From NCBI RefSeq assembly GCF_001006305.1, contig NZ_LBHJ01000003.1, positions 248,001 to 312,000 of the forward strand: a stretch of DNA of 64,000 bases. Reading direction: 5' to 3'. Below, one piece after another: positions 4,133 to 32,938 of the stretch (positions are counted from its first letter, which is position 1; each line of letters starts with the position of its first letter). The notes under the pieces are model-generated. The model had not been told where the DNA came from and did not search any database. It worked only from the letters and a program-made list of their open reading frames with translations. The translations under genes and the position numbers were made by a program. The stretch comes from Silvibacterium bohemicum. GTDB lineage: Bacteria > Acidobacteriota > Terriglobia > Terriglobales > Acidobacteriaceae.

Positions 4133-6445
4133 GTGTCCTGTTTAGCAGAGACTCATCCGCTGCCTCTGCCGACGCGCATCGCTGTTATCGGCAATTATCT
4201 GCCGCGACAGTGTGGCATCGCCACATTCACGACAGACCTATGCGCCGCAATTGCCATGGAATATGGCAACAATCGCCTTTTCGCGATACCTGTCAACGAT
4301 CCGGAATCACGCTATCAGTATCCCGAACGAGTACGGATAGAGCTTGAACAGGACGATTACGCCTCTTATGTGCGTGTTGCTGAGTTTCTCAATTTCAACA
4401 GTAACGACTTGGTGTGTCTGCAGCACGAATACGGGATCTTCGGCGGTGTCGCAGGCAGCTACATCCTGGCGTTGCTTCGGAAATTGAAAATGCCGCTGGT
4501 GACGACACTTCACACGGTTCTGCGCGAGCCGGACTCGAGTCAGCGTGCGGTGCTCGAAGAGATCGCCCATCTGTCTGATCGTTTGATTGTGATGAGCGAA
4601 CACGCTGTGCATCTTCTGCGCGACGTGTACGACGTGCCAGGTGGAAAGATCGACCTCATTCCTCATGGCGTGCCGGACCTGACATTCATGGACCCTAATT
4701 ACTTTAAGGATCAGTTCGGCACTGAGGGAAAGTTTGTTCTGCTTACCTTCGGCCTGCTGTCTCCGAATAAGGGAATCGAAAACGTCATCCGCGCGCTGCC
4801 AGCCATCCTCAAGAAACACGAAAACCTGGTGTACATCGTTTCCGGAGCGACGCACCCGCACATCAGACGGCGGGAAGGCGAGCGGTACAGGGAAGAGTTG
4901 CAGGCTCTGGCGGTGGAATTAGGCGTAGCCTCGCATGTCATCTTCAACAACCGTTTCGTGAGCGCCGAGGAGTTGGTCGAACACGTCGGCGCAGCGGACC
5001 TCTACATCACGCCCTATCGCCAGGAGGCGCAGGTCGTTTCCGGAACGCTCGCGATCGCTCTCGGTGCGGGAAAGGCTATTATTTCGACGCCTTATTGGCA
5101 CGCCAAAGAGCTTCTTGCCGACGGCAGAGGCGTCCTCGTTCCATTTGACGATCCCGGCTCCATTGCCGAGGCAGCGATACGATTGCTGGACAACGATGCC
5201 GAGCGCCATGCGATGCGAAAACGTGCTTATCTGCATTCGCGCGGCACAACCTGGCAGAAGACAGCACAGGCCTATATGGCGAGCTTCCAGCGCGCACGAA
5301 GAGAAAGAAGTTTGCGTCCGCGGGCCGCTCCGCAAGATATCTTCTCATCAACAACGCCTACGGATAGCTTGCCACAGTTCGATACAACACACTTGTCGAA
5401 CATGACAGACGACACGGGCATATTGCAGCATGCCATATTCACGGTGCCCAACAGCTTCGAAGGCTACACAACCGACGACAACGCCCGTGCGCTCATTGTT
5501 ACAACTCTGCTGAACGAATCTATCCTGGCCTGCCGCTCGGAATATACAGCGCTATCCCGCCGCTATCTGGCTTTTCTGTGGCTTGCCTTTCACGGAGAGA
5601 CGGGCAGATTCAGAAACTTCCTGAGCTACGACCGCAAGTGGCTGGAAAAGGTCGGCTCCGAAGACAGCCACGGCCGCGCCCTCTGGGCATTGGGGACGGT
5701 GTTTTGCCATTCGCAAGACGCCGGCCTGAGAGGCGCGGCGGGCAGGCTCTTCGAAGCCGCCGTCCCCGTGGCGCTCACGTTTACAAGTCCTCGCGCATGG
5801 GCCTTCTCCGTATTGGGTATGCAGGCCTATCTGGACTGCTTCCCCGGAGACCGGTTGATCCAGGGGACTCGAAATACGCTCGCCAATCTTTTGTTGGATG
5901 TCTATGAGCGCACTCATTCACCAACATGGGATTGGTTTGAGAAGAGCCTCTCCTACTCCAACGCGAGGCTGCCCCAGGCGCTCCTGGTCGCAGGATCGGA
6001 AAGCGACAACAAGCGGATGGTCGAAGCAGGATGCGATTCTCTCAGGTGGCTTGTCGCTGAGCAGCGCCGAGGTGACGTCTTCATGCCGATTGGCTCCCGC
6101 GGATTCTTTACGCAAGGCGGCGAGAAGGCGAGCTTCGATCAACAGCCGGTCGAGGCGTGCGGAACCATCTCTGCCTGCCTCCAGGCCTATCGGATCACTA
6201 ACGAGGATCAGTGGCTTGAGGAGGCATGGCGTGCCTTCCGCTGGTTTCTCGGCAAGAACGATCTCGAGGTTCCGCTTTACGACCCCACCACCGGCGGCTG
6301 TCGAGACGGTCTTCACCCAGACCGCGTTAACGAAAATCAGGGAGCAGAATCAACGCTTTCGTTCCTGATGGCGCTTCTCGAAATGCAAGGTATGGAAATG
6401 CCAACCGCAAAAGAACAGCATCAGGAAATGAGCGTCTCCCTTTGA
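4133..6445 (+). CDS. GT4-family glycosyltransferase fused to a C-terminal alpha/alpha-barrel domain
   Basis: Two-part protein of about 770 residues. The first half is a GT-B glycosyltransferase of family 4: RIAVIGNYLPRQCGIATF at the donor-domain start, FGLLSPNKGIENVI, and the nucleotide-sugar loop SGTLAIALGAGKAIIS. The second half (after the NMTDDTGILQHA segment) is a helical domain with FEGYTTDDNARALI, DSHGRALWALG and FDQQPVEACG, resembling six-hairpin glycosidase folds. The start is uncertain: GTG 4133 follows GGAGAG at a good distance; ATG 4094 and ATG 4043 are also open. It overlaps or abuts the GH130 gene, suggesting joint synthesis or turnover of a mannose-type glycan. Acceptor and linkage are unknown. 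Confidence 0.8.
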   Translation: MSCLAETHPLPLPTRIAVIGNYLPRQCGIATFTTDLCAAIAMEYGNNRLFAIPVNDPESRYQYPERVRIELEQDDYASYVRVAEFLNFNSNDLVCLQHEYGIFGGVAGSYILALLRKLKMPLVTTLHTVLREPDSSQRAVLEEIAHLSDRLIVMSEHAVHLLRDVYDVPGGKIDLIPHGVPDLTFMDPNYFKDQFGTEGKFVLLTFGLLSPNKGIENVIRALPAILKKHENLVYIVSGATHPHIRRREGERYREELQALAVELGVASHVIFNNRFVSAEELVEHVGAADLYITPYRQEAQVVSGTLAIALGAGKAIISTPYWHAKELLADGRGVLVPFDDPGSIAEAAIRLLDNDAERHAMRKRAYLHSRGTTWQKTAQAYMASFQRARRERSLRPRAAPQDIFSSTTPTDSLPQFDTTHLSNMTDDTGILQHAIFTVPNSFEGYTTDDNARALIVTTLLNESILACRSEYTALSRRYLAFLWLAFHGETGRFRNFLSYDRKWLEKVGSEDSHGRALWALGTVFCHSQDAGLRGAAGRLFEAAVPVALTFTSPRAWAFSVLGMQAYLDCFPGDRLIQGTRNTLANLLLDVYERTHSPTWDWFEKSLSYSNARLPQALLVAGSESDNKRMVEAGCDSLRWLVAEQRRGDVFMPIGSRGFFTQGGEKASFDQQPVEACGTISACLQAYRITNEDQWLEEAWRAFRWFLGKNDLEVPLYDPTTGGCRDGLHPDRVNENQGAESTLSFLMALLEMQGMEMPTAKEQHQEMSVSL

Positions 6446-26437: not shown

Positions 26438-27187
26438 TCACTTTTGCTCGCGTAAGGCGCGCATGGCTATCTTCGATCGAGCCTGTGGCAAGTCCACGAT
26501 CGGCGGCTTTTCCGCATTCTGCTCCGGTAGTTGATCATGCAGGATGATATTGAGCAGCGATTTGTGCACCCGGATGCGGCCGTTGTAGTCCACCAAGCCC
26601 ATTTTGCGGAAGCGGTTCATGAAGAAGCTGACGCGGGACCTGGTTGTGCCGATCATATCAGCGAGGGTTCCCTGGGTGATCTTCGGAATCAGCATTTCCG
26701 GTTCACCCGGTTCGCCGAATTCCGCCATCAACAGGAGGATCCTCGCCAAACGTTTTTCGCTGGAATTGAAAAGCTGATCCACCAGATCGGCCTGGGTCCG
26801 CATACTGCGGGCGAGCAGGAACTTCACAAACAGATCGGAGAAGGCATGCTCCTCGTGCATCACGCGGATCATCTCTGTCCGCTCAATCTTGAGCGCCGTA
26901 CAGGTAGTAATCGCAGTGGCGGTCGCCAGACGAAGCCCAACCGCTCCGGCAATCGACTCCTCGCCGATGAAGTCGCGGGCAGAGAGAAGCGTGACGGTCG
27001 CCTCTTTACCTTTTTCCGAAAGGACTGTTAGTTTTGCGCGTCCCTTCTGAAGATAGAAAACAGAGTCGGCAGGATTGCCCTGCGAAAAGAAGACGTGCTT
27101 CGCCTTGACTCGAACGATTCTGCGTCCGAGTCCTGCCTTCGCTAGAAAGGTGGTGGCGTCAAATTTGGCGTGTTCTGGTTCCATCAT
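26438..27187 (-). CDS. Crp/Fnr-family transcription regulator, first copy
   Basis: A 249-residue regulator. N-terminal effector domain (about 20-130: VFFSQGNPADSVFYLQKG, DFIGEESIAG), dimer helix ARSMRTQADLVDQLF, and winged helix (ITQGTLADMIGTTRSRVSFFMNRFRKMG, NGRIRVHKSLL). The FNR iron-sulfur cysteines are absent and the cAMP-type Arg-Ser pair is not conserved, so the signal is unknown. Compared with the copy at 62576 it has about 30 extra C-terminal residues; the recognition helix is the same. ATG 27187 starts the conserved part; a TTG at 27268 would add an unlikely basic leader. Site G lies upstream: probable autoregulation. Confidence 0.88.
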   Translation of the reverse strand: MMEPEHAKFDATTFLAKAGLGRRIVRVKAKHVFFSQGNPADSVFYLQKGRAKLTVLSEKGKEATVTLLSARDFIGEESIAGAVGLRLATATAITTCTALKIERTEMIRVMHEEHAFSDLFVKFLLARSMRTQADLVDQLFNSSEKRLARILLLMAEFGEPGEPEMLIPKITQGTLADMIGTTRSRVSFFMNRFRKMGLVDYNGRIRVHKSLLNIILHDQLPEQNAEKPPIVDLPQARSKIAMRALREQK

Positions 27188-27370
27188 CTGAATGGCCTCG
27201 TCGGTACGAGATATCCGTCTGGGGAATGGTCGATTCCTTGATAGGCGGGTGTCTCCAAATCGGAGCAAGAAACATCATGGCGAAGACCTCAGAGTCTGGG
27301 ACTGCCGTCCTCTTTTACCATGAGGGAGAACCGCTCCGCGCTGGGGCACATTTGTGCTCGCGCTTGATGC

Positions 27371-27414
27371 AGCATCGGCTTCAACAGGAACAGACGTCTG
27401 TTCCATTTTGCTCA
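27371..27414 (-). promoter_or_regulatory. Crp-type class II promoter, site G (crp-family gene itself)
   Basis: Minus strand: dyad TGAGC-AAAATG-GAACA at 27414-27399, 22-bp gap, hexamer GATGCT at 27376-27371, start about 27364, leader about 177 nt to ATG 27187. The gap 27188-27509 contains nothing else recognisable. Confidence 0.65.
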
Positions 27415-27509
27415 ATGCCAGCGAATAGCCAGGAAGCCCGCCTAACCTCATTTTGCAAGGCCGAAGGAGACGTACGGTAGAGTGTCGTCCTTCATCCCCC
27501 TTTTCGGAT

Positions 27510-28592
27510 TCAAGCAGCCTTGAGCGCTTCGCTCTTGGACGCGATGCAGTCGATCAGGTCTTTCCACGACTTGACGAAGGATTCGGCTCCTTCGTCCTGG
27601 AGTTGCTCGCCCAACGCGTCAACATCGATGCCAGCCTTTTCAAACTTGGCCAGCACTTCGTCACCCTTGCAGGCACGCACGGGTAAGCTCCCGTCGATCT
27701 CCCCGTGGTCGGCCAAGGCTTTCAACGTCGCCTCGGGCATGGTATTCACGGTGAATGGCGCAGCAAGCGCCTCGATGTACAGCGTGTCGGAGGCTTTGGG
27801 GTCCTTGGTTCCAGTGCTCGCGAAGAGAAGGCGCTGGGCGCGGGCGCCAGTATTGAAGATGCGCTGCCAGCGCGGAGAGTCGAGCAAATGCCGGTACCTT
27901 TCGTGGGTCTGCCACGCAACTGCGATGCCGAGTTGGTTGCGCAGCCATTCAGGCTCTTTACCGACGACCGCAACGTCCCAGCGGCTGACGAACAGCGAGG
28001 CAACAGAGCCCACGTCGGGATTCAACCCGGCCGTGATGCGGCGCTCGATGCCGCGGAGATATGCCTCGGCTGCCGCAACATACTGCGCACGGGAGAACAG
28101 TAGTGTCACGTTGATCGGCACACCCGCGAAGATCGCTTCTTCGATGGCGGGTAAGCCTTCCTTGGTCCCCGGTATTTTGATGAAGAGATTAGGCCGCGCC
28201 GCCTTCGCATGCAGAGCTTTGGCCGCGGCGAGAGTGCCGGAAGTGTCATGGGCCAATAAGGGCGAGACCTCGAGAGACACCCATCCGTCCACGCCGTTTG
28301 TCCGTTCGTGGATCGGGCGAAAGAGGTCGGCGGCCTGTCTAAGGTCCTCGATCGCCAGCTCGAAGAAGAGCGCCTCGCCCGATTTGCCCTCCTTCACCTT
28401 CTGTCGGATGGCAGCGTCGTAGTCACGACTGTTCTTGATGGCGTGATCGAAGATCGTGGGATTCGAGGTGAGCCCTGTGACTGAGAATTCCTGGATGTAG
28501 CTGTGGAGGGTTCCGCTGACCAGCAGACCACGGGTGATGTTGTCGAGCCAAAGGCTTTGGCCCAATTCGCAGAGTTTTCTGGTCGCTTTCAT
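27510..28592 (-). CDS. tal: transaldolase
   Basis: A 360-residue transaldolase of the large, actinobacterial/cyanobacterial type: moves dihydroxyacetone units between sedoheptulose-7-P and glyceraldehyde-3-P in the pentose-phosphate pathway. Seen: QSLWLDNITRGLLVSG, GLTSNPTIFDHAI, VSLEVSPLLAHDT, the Schiff-base lysine in NLFIKIPGTKEGL, NVTLLFSRAQYV, SVASLFVSRWD, LFASTGTKDP and TVNTMPEATL. ATG 28592 has GAGGAG before it and overlaps the zwf stop (ATGA), so the two are translationally coupled. It is last in the gnd-zwf-tal group. Confidence 0.93.
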   Translation of the reverse strand: MKATRKLCELGQSLWLDNITRGLLVSGTLHSYIQEFSVTGLTSNPTIFDHAIKNSRDYDAAIRQKVKEGKSGEALFFELAIEDLRQAADLFRPIHERTNGVDGWVSLEVSPLLAHDTSGTLAAAKALHAKAARPNLFIKIPGTKEGLPAIEEAIFAGVPINVTLLFSRAQYVAAAEAYLRGIERRITAGLNPDVGSVASLFVSRWDVAVVGKEPEWLRNQLGIAVAWQTHERYRHLLDSPRWQRIFNTGARAQRLLFASTGTKDPKASDTLYIEALAAPFTVNTMPEATLKALADHGEIDGSLPVRACKGDEVLAKFEKAGIDVDALGEQLQDEGAESFVKSWKDLIDCIASKSEALKAA

Positions 28593-29983
28593 GATTTCTC
28601 CTCGGGCTTGGGATTGTGCCAACGATCGCCTGCAGCGAGGATAGTGTCAGCCTCTTTCGGTCCCCAGCTGCGTCGCTTGTAGATGCGCGTCCGGGGGTGG
28701 TTCTTGAGGACCGGATCAACGACGGCCCAGGCCGCCTCGACCGCGTCCTCACGAGTGAAGAGGGCTCCATCGCCACGCATGGCGTCGCCCAACAAGCGTT
28801 CGTACGGAGACTCCTGACCTGGCCGCTGTTCGGACAGGTAGAGTTCTCGTTGGTCCCCGATGAAGTCTTTCCCTGCCACTTTAACGCGAGCGGCGAGTGC
28901 GATGGCCGAGTCGGGGGAGATCCGAAAGCGCAGATAGTTGGCCCTGCCAGTGCTCGGTTCGGAGTCTGCGAAAAGATTCTGCGGTGAAGGCTTCAACTCC
29001 ACCAGCACCTCTGTCGCGTTTTCTGCCAGGTATTTACCCGACCGGAGGTACCACGGCACCCCTTGCCAACGCCATGAGTCGATGAAAAGCCGCAAAGCAC
29101 AGAAGGTCTCGACGTCAGAGTTCTTCGCCACGTCTTTTTCCTTACGGTAGCCGTCGTATTGGCCGCGGACTATATCGCTGGACTTCAAGGGGCGCATGGC
29201 CTGAAAGACCTTGGCCTTCTCGGTCTGTACGGCTCCGAAGTCCCGAGTGGCCGGCGGTTCCATGGCCAGCAGCGCGACGACCTGGAAGAGGTGGTTCTGG
29301 ATCACGTCGCGCAGACAGCCGGCGGTTTCATAGAACGCTCCGCGGCCTTTCACGCCGAAGGTTTCGGACAGAGTCACCTGGATGCTGGCAACATAGTTGC
29401 GATTCCAGATCGGCTCGAGGAAGGAATTGGCGAACCGGAAGTACAGGATATTCATGATCGCCTCCTTCCCAAGGAAGTGGTCGATGCGGAAGATCGAGTC
29501 TTCCGGAAAGACCGTGTGCGCGACGCGGTTGAGCTCCCGTGCGGAGGCAAGGTCACGTCCGAACGGTTTTTCGACGATGACACGCGCGTGTTGGGCCAGG
29601 CCCGCTTCACCAAGCCCCTTGATGACTGTCTCGAAGAGCGACGGCGGAATGGCGAGGTAGTGCGCCGGACGCCGGGCGTTGCCCAACTCCTTCTTGATCG
29701 CGGTGAACGTGGCCGGGTCTTTGTAATCGCCGCTCACATATCGGAATAAGGATAGAAGAGTGTGGAGGGCCTGCTTGTCGTCAATTCCGCCCGATCGCTC
29801 GATGCTGTCTGTCACGCGTTTATGCAAACGCTCAAGACTCCATTTTGGGAAGGCGACACCGATGACCGGCACCTTGAGTGCGCCGTGTTTCACCATGGCA
29901 TAGAGGGCCGGGAAGGTCATCTTGTGAGCGAGATCCCCAGTTACCCCGAAAAGCACCAGCGCGTCAGATTGGGAAGGGGCCAT
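28589..29983 (-). CDS. zwf: glucose-6-phosphate 1-dehydrogenase
   Basis: A 464-residue enzyme that oxidises glucose-6-P to 6-phosphogluconolactone with NADP(+). Seen: nucleotide motif LFGVTGDLAHKMTFPALYAM, EKPFGRDLASA, the active-site signature FRIDHFLGKEAIMN, RNYVASIQVTLSE, GAFYETAGCLRDVIQNHLFQ, and WYLRSGKYLAENATEV. Its first base shares the last base of the gnd stop (TGATG) and its stop overlaps the tal start (ATGA). No 6-phosphogluconolactonase gene lies in the cluster. Length is a little short of the typical 490. Confidence 0.95.
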   Translation of the reverse strand: MAPSQSDALVLFGVTGDLAHKMTFPALYAMVKHGALKVPVIGVAFPKWSLERLHKRVTDSIERSGGIDDKQALHTLLSLFRYVSGDYKDPATFTAIKKELGNARRPAHYLAIPPSLFETVIKGLGEAGLAQHARVIVEKPFGRDLASARELNRVAHTVFPEDSIFRIDHFLGKEAIMNILYFRFANSFLEPIWNRNYVASIQVTLSETFGVKGRGAFYETAGCLRDVIQNHLFQVVALLAMEPPATRDFGAVQTEKAKVFQAMRPLKSSDIVRGQYDGYRKEKDVAKNSDVETFCALRLFIDSWRWQGVPWYLRSGKYLAENATEVLVELKPSPQNLFADSEPSTGRANYLRFRISPDSAIALAARVKVAGKDFIGDQRELYLSEQRPGQESPYERLLGDAMRGDGALFTREDAVEAAWAVVDPVLKNHPRTRIYKRRSWGPKEADTILAAGDRWHNPKPEEKS

Positions 29984-31014
29984 CAGGCAGCTTCCTTTTG
30001 TGGGGCAGTCTTTTCCTTATGGCCGCCAAACTGGAAGCGCAGGGCGGACAACAGCTTGTCGGCAAAGTCATCCTCGCCGCGCGAACTGAAGCGTTCATAG
30101 AGCGCCGCGCTGAGGACGGGTGCCGGAACGGACTCGTCGATCGCCGCTTTGATCGTCCAGCGTCCTTCCCCTGAGTCCGACACACGGCCGGCAAATTTCG
30201 CGAGATCCGGGTTATCGAGCAGCGAAGTTGCGGCCAGATCCAATAGCCACGAAGCGATGACGCTGCCGCGCCGCCAGACCTCGGTGATGTCGGCCAAGTT
30301 TAGATCGTACGCATAGTGTTCGGGATCGCGCAGCGGCGTGGTCTCGGCGTCGACCGTGCTCTTCTGCTTGCCTACGTTGGCACGATGCAGGATATTCAAG
30401 CCTTCCGCGTAGGAGGCCATCATGCCGTACTCGATGCCGTTGTGAATCATCTTGACGAAGTGGCCTGCGCCACTTGGCCCGCAGTGGAGATAGCCATGTT
30501 CTGCGGTGCCACCGACCTTCTCGCGACCGGGTGTGCGCGGAGCTTCTTCGATTCCCGGGGCCAGAGCGCTAAAGATCGGTTCTAGACCTCGAACGACAGC
30601 GTCATCGCCGCCGATCATCAGGCAGTAGCCACGTTCCGAACCCCAGACCCCGCCGCTGGTTCCGACATCCACATAGTGGATACCCTTCGGTTTCAAATCG
30701 GCGGCGCGGCGGATGTCATCGTGGTAGTAGGAATTGCCGCCATCGATAAGTATGTCTCCGGGCTCGAGGAGTGGGAGAATGGTCTTCAACGTTGTATCGA
30801 CCGCAGCCGCAGGCACCATCATCCAGACGGCACGAGGCTTTTTCAACTTTTTCGCAAAGTCTTCGAGTGAAGTTGCACCGACCGCGCCCTCTTTCGCGAG
30901 CCCCTGCACAGTTTCCTGATTAGTGTCGTAAACGACGCAATGGTGGCCGGCTTTCTGAAGCCGCAGCACCATATTGGTTCCCATCCTGCCCAGTCCGATC
31001 ATGCCCAGTTCCAT
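29983..31014 (-). CDS. gnd: 6-phosphogluconate dehydrogenase, decarboxylating, short (YqeC-type)
   Basis: A 343-residue enzyme that converts 6-phosphogluconate to ribulose-5-P and CO2. Seen: [55 protein letters not shown], the catalytic Lys region [14 protein letters not shown], and [19 protein letters not shown]. The length and C-terminal part fit the short, often NAD-linked form. First gene of the overlapping gnd-zwf-tal group; 153 bp separate it from the SHOCT gene, with the hairpin 31132-31151 between them. Confidence 0.93.
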
Positions 31015-31131
31015 GGAGTTCCTTTCGATACCTTCTGCTGTTCGAGCGCCCGCACTTCCCCACGATCAGGCGAACAAGCATCCTGGGAGAGTCCGGAACG
31101 TATACCACGAATTTCGTTCGTGACGATGCAT

Positions 31132-31151
31132 TGCTCCGATTCTGCGGAGCA
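31132..31151 (-). terminator. hairpin between SHOCT gene and gnd
   Basis: Stem TGCTCCG / CGGAGCA with a 6-nt loop, just behind the stop of the SHOCT gene. No T-run. It may attenuate transcription from site H into gnd. Confidence 0.4.
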
Positions 31152-31167
31152 TGGGCTTGAATCAGAC

Positions 31168-31404
31168 TTATCTGATCTTCGTATCCCGCAGAAGTTTACC
31201 CCTGCGTTCCTCATATTCCTCGGAGGTGATCTCGCCGGCGGCATACCTCCTTTGCAGGATTTGCAGAGGCGTTTGCATGTCCCGGTAGCTCGCCCAGTTG
31301 CTTCGCCTCACCGGCATCATGAAGGAGAAGAACAATATCCATAGGATGAGCCAGAAAATCCACCAATATGTATGCATTCCCGCCCAGTAATAGCCGTTCA
31401 TCAT
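31168..31404 (-). CDS. small membrane protein with SHOCT domain
   Basis: A 78-residue protein: one transmembrane helix (WWIFWLILWILFFSFMMPV), a short linker and a C-terminal SHOCT motif (PLQILQRRYAAGEITSEEYEERRGKLL), a short domain that oligomerises. ATG 31404 (tandem ATG ATG) follows GAGGAGG. Function unknown. It lies between the metallothionein gene and gnd and is probably part of that transcript. Confidence 0.75.
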   Translation of the reverse strand: MMNGYYWAGMHTYWWIFWLILWILFFSFMMPVRRSNWASYRDMQTPLQILQRRYAAGEITSEEYEERRGKLLRDTKIR

Positions 31405-31568
31405 AGACGCCTCCTCGGTTCTGTTAGGCAATATTCTGAATCTCGACCCTTTGTATCTAGCCGTGGGGCGACGGTCGTTGCAAGTGCTGTCGAAGCTGTC
31501 ATGGTCGCCCTGTGTCTCTACTCGTTGTGCGGGAACATAGTCTGCGTGTGGAAGTCTCTACGAATCGA

Positions 31569-31727
31569 TTACGACTTCAATGACTGGCCCTGGCACGCAG
31601 GATGCTGGCATTGGCAGGTCAGTTCCGTCACGCCTTTCGCATCGGCACAGGTGGCGCTACAGTATTTCTTTCCGTCGGCCGGGACGCAGTTACAAGCAGG
31701 ACGCGCGCATTTCGATGTTGCAGTCAT
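31569..31727 (-). CDS. bacterial metallothionein-like protein
   Basis: A 52-residue Cys-rich protein: Cys at positions 7, 12, 14, 23, 27, 38, 40 and 45 plus a His at 42, in the order KC-x4-CNC, then YCSATC, then CQCQHPAC. This matches the SmtA/BmtA-type bacterial metallothionein, a small cytoplasmic zinc/cadmium/copper buffer; the family typically has nine Cys, here eight. AAGGAG stands six bases before ATG 31727. The gene is short enough to be missed by gene finders. It is preceded by site H and sits between tpiA and the SHOCT gene. Confidence 0.85.
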   Translation of the reverse strand: MTATSKCARPACNCVPADGKKYCSATCADAKGVTELTCQCQHPACQGQSLKS

Positions 31728-31847
31728 AAGAACTCCTTGCTGTCGAACGTGATCTTTAGAAGAAACATTGTGCGAGAAACCTGCTCATTCGATCGGGCGG
31801 GCGCCCGTGCTCCACGTCGGAGCACTTTAGTACTTGCACTTGAGACG

Positions 31848-31890
31848 AGCATCGCACCGGCGCAACCCGCAATCTGTTCGGTTTTGCTCA
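31848..31890 (-). promoter_or_regulatory. Crp-type class II promoter, site H (metallothionein-SHOCT-gnd-zwf-tal)
   Basis: Minus strand: dyad TGAGC-AAAACC-GAACA at 31890-31875, 21-bp gap, hexamer GATGCT at 31853-31848, start about 31841, leader about 114 nt. Shares extra identity with site I: CCGGTGCGAT before the hexamer and GTGCAAGTAC at the predicted start. The remainder of 31892-32158 shows no gene. Confidence 0.72.
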
Positions 31891-32158
31891 TCGTTGTCGG
31901 CTATCTTCGCGCTGTATCCAAGGGAATATTGGTGAGTCCCGACCGTCTCGCCATAGCCTTCCCGATAGAAGTTCCCTAAAACAAAGGACACGGAGTGGAC
32001 GCAGAGGATGACATCGGCAAGTTGACGCGTGAAGGCAGCATGTACGACAGGTTTTAGTCCTCGTTGGACTGGCGCCGCTTCTCTACCTATACCGTTTCGG
32101 CCCGAACATTCAGGAGCAGAAACGGAAATGATTGCTCCTGAGAGCAAAAATGTGCCAT

Positions 32159-32938
32159 TTATGAATCCTCCTTCGCAGCGCGGATGATGGCCAGAAATTG
32201 GTCGGCCTTCATGCTGGCTCCGCCGATCAGGGCGCCGTCCACGCCATTACGGCGAAGAAATGCGGCGGCGTTCTCCGGATCGACGCTGCCACCGTACTGA
32301 ATCGCGACGGCTTCAGCCGCTTCCTCGCCAAATAGGTTCGCGAATCGGCCGCGGAGTATGGCATGCGCATCCTCAGCCTGCTGTGGGGTGGCATGGTGAG
32401 CGGCATTGCCGATCGCCCACACCGGCTCGTACGCGATGCTAATACGGGGCAAGGCATCGGCTGGCACGTCGGCCAATCCCAGGCTGAGTTGCCGGTCGAG
32501 CAGCGCTTCCGTCTGGTTGGCCTTACGTTGCTCCAGGGTTTCGCCTACGCACAAGATGACGCCCAGGCCAGAAGCCAGGGCAAATCGAACTTTTTGATTG
32601 ATGAACATATCCGATTCGCCCAACTTGTGCCGGCGCTCACTGTGTCCTAGGATGACGTACTTGCAGCCCAGGTCGAGCAGCATCATCGGGCTGACTTCGC
32701 CGGTGAATGCTCCTTCCTTTTCGGGATACATGTTTTGTGCTCCGAGCGCAATGCGGCTGCCCTTGAGGATCTCCCGGACCAAGGCCAGATAGGGGAAGGG
32801 CGGACACAGAATGACAGATACGTCATCCTCATTGCCCAAACCATTGGCGACTCCCTTGGCCAATTGCCTGGCCTCGGCGGAGGTCGTATGCATCTTCCAG
32901 TTACCGACAACAACCTTCCGGCGCTTGCCCGGTTTCAT
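32159..32938 (-). CDS. tpiA: triosephosphate isomerase
   Basis: A 259-residue TIM barrel interconverting dihydroxyacetone-P and glyceraldehyde-3-P. All landmarks are visible: NWKMH (catalytic Lys), GAQNMY, GHSERR (catalytic His), AYEPVWAIGN (catalytic Glu), the flexible-loop region and YGGSV with GALIGGAS at the phosphate site. Its ATG overlaps the aldolase stop (ATGA), so it is coupled to it. Genomes usually have a housekeeping tpiA elsewhere; this copy belongs to the phosphoketolase operon. Confidence 0.95.
   Translation of the reverse strand: MKPGKRRKVVVGNWKMHTTSAEARQLAKGVANGLGNEDDVSVILCPPFPYLALVREILKGSRIALGAQNMYPEKEGAFTGEVSPMMLLDLGCKYVILGHSERRHKLGESDMFINQKVRFALASGLGVILCVGETLEQRKANQTEALLDRQLSLGLADVPADALPRISIAYEPVWAIGNAAHHATPQQAEDAHAILRGRFANLFGEEAAEAVAIQYGGSVDPENAAAFLRRNGVDGALIGGASMKADQFLAIIRAAKEDS

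Follow-up and report, generated by a model that had tools for sequence, protein, structure and literature searches.

The window, i.e., the whole stretch of 64,000 nucleotides that was analysed within an assembly of 6.46 Mb, harbors on its minus strand a coding sequence of 52 residues (31569..31727) which starts with ATG and encodes eight Cys (positions 7, 12, 14, 23, 27, 38, 40, and 45) together with His42. It is assigned as metallothionein-like on the basis of conservation, dN/dS, and profile-profile alignment. An open reading frame (ORF) of this length had been claimed in the initial annotation with its strand unstated; translation of the plus strand over the same interval meets an early stop, so that only the minus strand carries it. 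The good ribosome-binding site claimed together with the ORF can be read as AAGGAG (31733..31738, minus strand), ending five bases 5' of the ATG, and AAGGAG is also found 5' of the start codon in the close relatives displayed in the upstream alignment. The gene lies between tpi (32938-32159), its upstream neighbour, and a SHOCT-gnd-zwf-tal block (31431-27510) downstream, all on the minus strand. This position before SHOCT-gnd-zwf-tal, also noted beforehand, was borne out when the neighbours were read and assigned with Pfam: a SHOCT-domain protein of 87 amino acids (31168..31431; PF09851, 38.4 bits vs. a cut-off of 27), the 6-phosphogluconate dehydrogenase gene gnd (29983..31014; NAD_binding_2 and 6PGD), the glucose-6-phosphate dehydrogenase gene zwf (28589..29983; G6PD_N and G6PD_C), and the transaldolase gene tal (27510..28622; TAL_FSA). 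The same strand also carries CRP1 (26438..27268; cNMP_binding and HTH_Crp_2), a CRP/FNR-family regulator and candidate activator.

Judged at the codon level, the 52-residue ORF is a real gene under purifying selection. Homologues were found in 38 of the 100 genomes searched, and all eight Cys as well as His42 are invariant in 30/30 aligned homologues (one for each genome, taken from 51 listed places), Ser24 being nearly invariant; frame and Cys pattern are thus kept in relatives, which the initial annotation had proposed as a check. Because a Cys-rich query favours Cys-rich matches, a codon-level comparison was added. Codon differences among relatives are concentrated at third positions. A dN/dS value could be computed for 16 of 36 close pairs and ranges there from 0.06 to 0.36; the remaining 20 pairs have saturated dS, and several of the 16 have a dS above 1. 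That the stretch would be regulatory DNA or a chance ORF rather than a gene has next to no probability: a conserved DNA box further upstream, discussed below, also spells an apparent MSKTEQIA peptide, which illustrates how conservation alone can mislead, but the third-position changes, the low dN/dS, and the retention of all eight Cys argue for a protein, the ORF is retained in L031-L033 where the box is absent, and Rfam matched nothing in the window.

From its anatomy, the protein is here called a divergent metallothionein, a remote relative of SmtA that falls below the Pfam membership cut-off. Prokaryotic metallothionein PF02069 scores it at 16.2 bits vs. a curated cut-off of 33 and matches 8 of 30 relatives at E ≤ 0.1 (best 0.00044); a PF02069 search of its own genome gave no match at E ≤ 0.001, and NCBIfam matched none of 30 family members. 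Aligned by hhalign with six SmtA-type proteins, it reaches a probability of 96.1 (E 3.5e-9, 45 columns), a score possibly inflated by shared Cys-rich composition; seven of SmtA's nine Cys and its His49 are paired with Cys and His42 of the 52-residue protein. L051, another member of the phylum, passes Pfam at 35.1 bits with the Cys spacing of the window family and provides a bridge to the SmtA type. Neither the protein nor the family profile A1 retrieved a metallothionein from the PDB by sequence search, and the single AlphaFold2 model (11 alignment rows) is poor (pLDDT 61, pTM 0.35), Foldseek giving no match to it at E ≤ 0.001. The SmtA/BmtA-like Cys order claimed in the initial annotation stands as regards the eight Cys and their similar order; the likeness is approximate, with seven of nine Cys aligned and a score under the Pfam cut-off.

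Like SmtA of Synechococcus (PDB 1jjd; PF02069), the protein is small and Cys-rich, and the C-x-C, CxxxC, and CxHxxC elements of the two align. Unlike SmtA, it has eight Cys rather than nine: the second N-terminal Cys of SmtA gives way to Arg9, many relatives having His or Asn at this place. At the C-terminus, the window protein carries CxCxHxxC where SmtA has CxHxxCxC. While the cyanobacterial SmtA type has an adjacent SmtB/ArsR repressor gene, the neighbours of the window gene are tpi and SHOCT; no ArsR/SmtB gene was found among its neighbours in the window, where two small upstream ORFs lack a Pfam match. According to the available part of PMC7387436, Pseudomonas metallothioneins likewise have no ArsR/SmtB repressor next door, and the metallothionein of P. 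fluorescens Q2-87 (PDB 6gv6, 6grv) also resembles the present case in lacking a metal-sensing repressor, in belonging to a larger operon, and in being tied to growth state. It differs, in the same part of that source, in its neighbours, which are proteins of unknown function rather than pentose-phosphate genes, and in its cluster of nine Cys and one His (PMC7387436).

The main new result is that a tie to pentose-phosphate genes is kept across several gene orders in one metallothionein-like group. The initial annotation had regarded the position before SHOCT-gnd-zwf-tal as unusual; the gene does stand at the head of pentose-phosphate genes, but this is no one-off, being the rule in its own group. 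Flanks of homologues were searched with the window genes, tkt, and rpiB, and in a second set also with a ROK-family kinase. In a protein tree of 70 rows, rough because of the short alignment, the window gene falls in a fork of 20 (support 89/82). A pentose-phosphate gene (zwf, gnd, rpiB, or tkt) is located at most 1.5 kb downstream on the same strand in 16/20 rows of this group vs. 0/50 outside it, where in four rows (L041, L131, L196, and L203) the contig ends within 1.5 kb downstream, as it does in L195 (after 1.05 kb) within the group. The counts are partly non-independent, L031-L033 coming from one genus and the proteins of L068, L069, and L191 being similar; duplicates were counted once (L187 = L068, L189 = L070, L163 = L063), and many flanks come from metagenome-assembled genomes (MAGs) with short contigs. 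Nineteen of the 20 rows had been picked by eye before the second tree, which united all 19 and added L112; it omitted four long or odd rows (L135, L137, L140, and L141), none of which has a listed pathway gene nearby. Nine members known at the time of the first tree (60 rows) had grouped at 96/97.

Numerous gene orders can be found downstream within the group. Besides SHOCT-gnd-zwf-tal in the window, zwf follows in L031, L032, L033, and L193, rpiB in L068 and L191, rpiB-tal in L192, tkt-rpiB-zwf-tal in L070, and tkt-rpiB-gnd-zwf-tal in L194; tkt follows in L069, L199, and L204, at or near contig ends. In L112, from another family of the class, a ROK-family kinase precedes zwf, and in L190 a universal stress protein gene precedes rpiB-tal. 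L062 carries rpiB, a gnd remnant, and zwf, the remnant (5576-5839) being an 87-residue ORF between the other two whose similarity to gnd is confined to disjoint pieces. The exceptions are L063 and L202, with a CRP gene downstream, L188, with YflT and SPFH proteins, and L195, with nothing recognised in its 1.05 kb. As judged by eye, the flanks of L033 (G062) contain GC-rich stretches whose translations show recurring Pro/Arg/Gly-rich words, resembling interspersed repeats. Beyond the group, the homologue at L138 7987 is trailed after 49 bases by the gene of a protein that clusters with the stress-type proteins beside zwf in L031-L033.

Such a persistent association can be accounted for in more than one way. 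It might be positional only, an operon head with a strong promoter driving any neighbour and the product having a metal or stress role unrelated to NADPH. The CRP gene next in L063 and L202, the YflT and SPFH genes of L188, and the universal stress protein gene of L190 are consistent with this, as is the presence, outside the group, of acetate kinase within 7 kb in L116, L133, and L138, with phosphoketolase as well in L133 and L138; but 16 of 20 members, among them L031-L033 which have no box, do have pathway genes next, and this explanation is considered rather unlikely. Alternatively, the product could be a small zinc-finger-like protein whose Cys and His serve a fold contacting DNA, RNA, or a pathway enzyme rather than a metal store, e.g., a redox-switched, CP12-like partner of glucose-6-phosphate dehydrogenase, CP12 itself acting on Calvin-cycle enzymes. 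Constancy beside pathway genes through several rearrangements would suit such a partner, as would the score under the Pfam metallothionein cut-off and the YCSxxC stretch, which is presumably of the kind found in zinc knuckles. Against this, family members at large carry the same Cys set and mostly lie at a distance from the pathway (none of the 50 outside rows has it), and the top profile match is the SmtA-type metallothionein, so that this second alternative is held to be unlikely.

Regarding precedents, no bacterial metallothionein in a pentose-phosphate operon was found in the open-access literature, several of the searches being too broad as a test. The sole open-access match for "bacterial metallothionein" together with "glucose-6-phosphate dehydrogenase" is a study which, in its available part, names Zwf and SmtA as entries of a proteome rather than as products of one operon (PMC3865332).

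Upstream of the metallothionein-like gene, alignment of the homologues' upstream regions revealed a conserved TGAGCAAAACnGAACAGA. In the window it corresponds to a putative class II activator box, TGAGCAAAACCGAACAGA (31873..31890, minus strand), with the dyad TGAGC-N6-GAACA, supported by the upstream alignment, by enrichment, and by its spacing from a -10-like hexamer. This hexamer, GATGCT (31848..31853, minus strand), lies 19 bases after the box and is preceded by TGC as in an extended -10; its position predicts a transcript start at about 31841, and with GATGCT taken as the -10 the dyad is centred at -41.5. In class II promoters dependent on CRP or FNR the dyad is likewise at -41.5. The class II site announced in the initial annotation is thus real as judged by its geometry (31890-31873, minus strand), sharing with CRP/FNR-dependent promoters a 5-6-5 dyad at -41.5 from an extended -10-like hexamer. 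It differs from them in its half-sites, TGAGC and TGTTC instead of TGTGA or TTGAT, and its regulator is a candidate. An ECF sigma promoter was considered and rejected: the GAAC of the box stands 22 bases before the -10-like hexamer, which is too long for the shorter -35/-10 spacing of ECF promoters, and the dyad fits CRP. A leader peptide encoded by the MSKTEQIA ORF (31891-31724) was also dropped, as a by-product of a DNA box that recurs at other promoters; it is further disfavoured by L070, where TTG instead of ATG occupies that frame position. A scan of 27200-32400 on the minus strand found no terminator-like site, which makes read-through from the metallothionein-like gene into SHOCT-gnd-zwf-tal plausible. 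This is tempered by a sigma-70-like site at 31427-31400 (minus strand), one of three such sites in the scan vs. 1.4 expected, from which SHOCT-gnd-zwf-tal could start separately.

The box is shared by most close relatives. With at most three mismatches it is present upstream of 14/19 of them vs. 4/3800 nearly dinucleotide-preserving shuffles (about 0.1%); six of the 19 had helped to define it, and among ten relatives fetched later and not used for its definition it occurs in eight. The hexamer at 19 bases agrees with NATNCT at three or more of four positions in 12 of the 14 and at all four in nine, and the box ends 143-154 bases 5' of the start codon in 9/14. At this threshold, no box was found among the 19 in L031-L033, L191, and L193; outside the 19, two homologues have it, L122 and L133 (at most three mismatches, 500 bases upstream). 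In L193, a perfect dyad TGTGC-N6-GCACA starts 128 bases 5' of the metallothionein-like gene, with AAGACT 19 bases past the 18-base stretch; having six mismatches to the box it was scored as absent, and it is perhaps the same type of site with other half-sites.

A 17-base form of the box (at most three mismatches) has 13 sites in the window vs. 1.76 expected and a maximum of five among 100 shuffles. With at most one mismatch this form occurs 12 times in its own genome and its reversed control not at all, nine of the 12 sites falling in C12:176-326 kb, around the window. Besides the box described above, one precedes CRP1 (27397..27414, minus strand; one mismatch, with its -10-like hexamer at 20 instead of 19 bases), and seven others with at most three mismatches to the 18-base box precede a response regulator gene (26450, within the terminal part of CRP1), the HAD gene upstream of phosphoketolase (37357), and the genes of a glycosyltransferase (3730), a CBM48/amylase protein (46837, with a weak -10), a fatty-acid desaturase (60249), an alpha-amylase (61963), and a small ORF without a Pfam match (15546). 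In 6/9 window sites, 19 bases separate the 18-base box from the start of a hexamer matching NATNCT at three or more of four positions, whereas each of the other spacings between 8 and 26 is seen in at most one of the nine. These nine class II-type boxes likely form a regulon centred on the window island. Further boxes (at most four mismatches) occur on both flanks in the same genome (L207, L208, and L209; C12:175-190, 232-248, and 312-330 kb), which suggests that the putative regulon extends well past the window. A perfect palindrome, GGAACAGACGTCTGTTCC, with two GAACAGA halves (27387-27404) overlaps the box before CRP1 and is possibly an extra operator for self-control of CRP1.

The strict box TGAGCAAAANNGAACAG was found in 3/100 genomes, eight times in its own and once in each of two others, where it lies 98 and 151 bases 5' of the aligned part of CRP-family genes. 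Considering that it precedes such genes in both other genomes, this suggests that CRP-family regulators of the kind of CRP1 read the box; the -10 place at 19 bases is occupied there by CAAAAT and TAAACT, not NATNCT. The closest relatives of the protein in named genomes belong to Acidobacteriota, mostly MAGs (several labelled Acidobacteriaceae), and include Acidipila rosea, which places the host in that phylum. Same-genus homologues are only 40-57% identical, and the strict box is absent from 8/8 same-genus genomes searched, which together would fit a patchy or transferred cluster; single-query searches gave no match in plasmids, phages, or viral contigs. The genome has three family copies in total, the two others being located at C13:293240-293383 (50% identical) and C12:996579-996719 (37% identical), with no box in the 500 bases upstream of either.

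The reading given slightly more belief than doubt is that a CRP/FNR-family activator switches on a metal/thiol buffer jointly with the pathway that supplies NADPH. It builds on a gene, a conservation, a promoter geometry, and a conserved gene order that are observed, and metal binding, co-transcription, the identity of the regulator, its signal, and the physiological role are inferred from there. The eight Cys with one or more His would probably ligate Zn(II) (or Cu(I)) in a small thiolate cluster, and the metallothionein-like gene would be the first of a unit extending to the genes of the oxidative pentose-phosphate branch. CRP1 or a paralogue is the probable activator; as a dimer of the CRP/FNR family, it would bind TGAGC-N6-GAACA at -41.5 and recruit RNA polymerase to the extended -10. 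Energy, carbon, or oxygen stress is a likely trigger, since boxes precede CRP1, the response regulator, the HAD-phosphoketolase unit, and amylase-type enzymes. With the regulon on, the cell would produce a metal buffer rich in thiols alongside the enzymes that generate NADPH, the buffer taking up zinc freed by turnover or oxidation of metalloproteins and NADPH keeping its thiols reduced. Delivery of zinc to the enzymes of the cluster appears unlikely because its aldolase belongs to class I, which works without metal, and zinc is not required by the enzymes of the pentose-phosphate pathway; an NADPH-dependent zinc/thiol buffer is the simplest reading.

For a buffer of this kind, a precedent for a role linked to growth state can be seen in the Pseudomonas metallothionein without a metal sensor which, in the available part of its report, is induced in stationary phase and helps long-term starvation (PMC7387436). 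The same part describes it as dispensable for metal resistance and for oxidative stress, which by analogy would weaken the redox side of the buffer reading (PMC7387436). Also against the buffer stand the score below the Pfam cut-off, the lack of an NCBIfam match, and the poor model without a fold match; the loci without a box (L031-L033, L191, and L193) or without a pathway neighbour (L063, L188, L195, and L202); and the possible separate start at 31427-31400 together with the off-consensus -10 in the two other genomes. A stronger form, in which the metallothionein group would be a dedicated metal-redox module working with the pentose-phosphate pathway and retained beside its genes through repeated operon reshuffling, is put forward as unlikely. 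The protein would then serve as a zinc/thiol reservoir that is charged by NADPH and adjusted to the flux of the pathway, or else as a regulatory subunit of the pathway enzymes that carries metal.

Roles have been tested for only a few metallothioneins of bacteria, and members lacking a metal-sensing repressor are puzzling, as far as the available part of PMC7387436 goes. A group beside pentose-phosphate genes, with a promoter seemingly read by a CRP-family regulator and not by a metal sensor, offers for such proteins a concrete hypothesis, namely metal or thiol buffering within a redox or starvation programme. Genes of this type are easily missed, since PF02069 detects a member in 1 of 149 genomes of the phylum whereas the A1 profile does so in 21 of 149.
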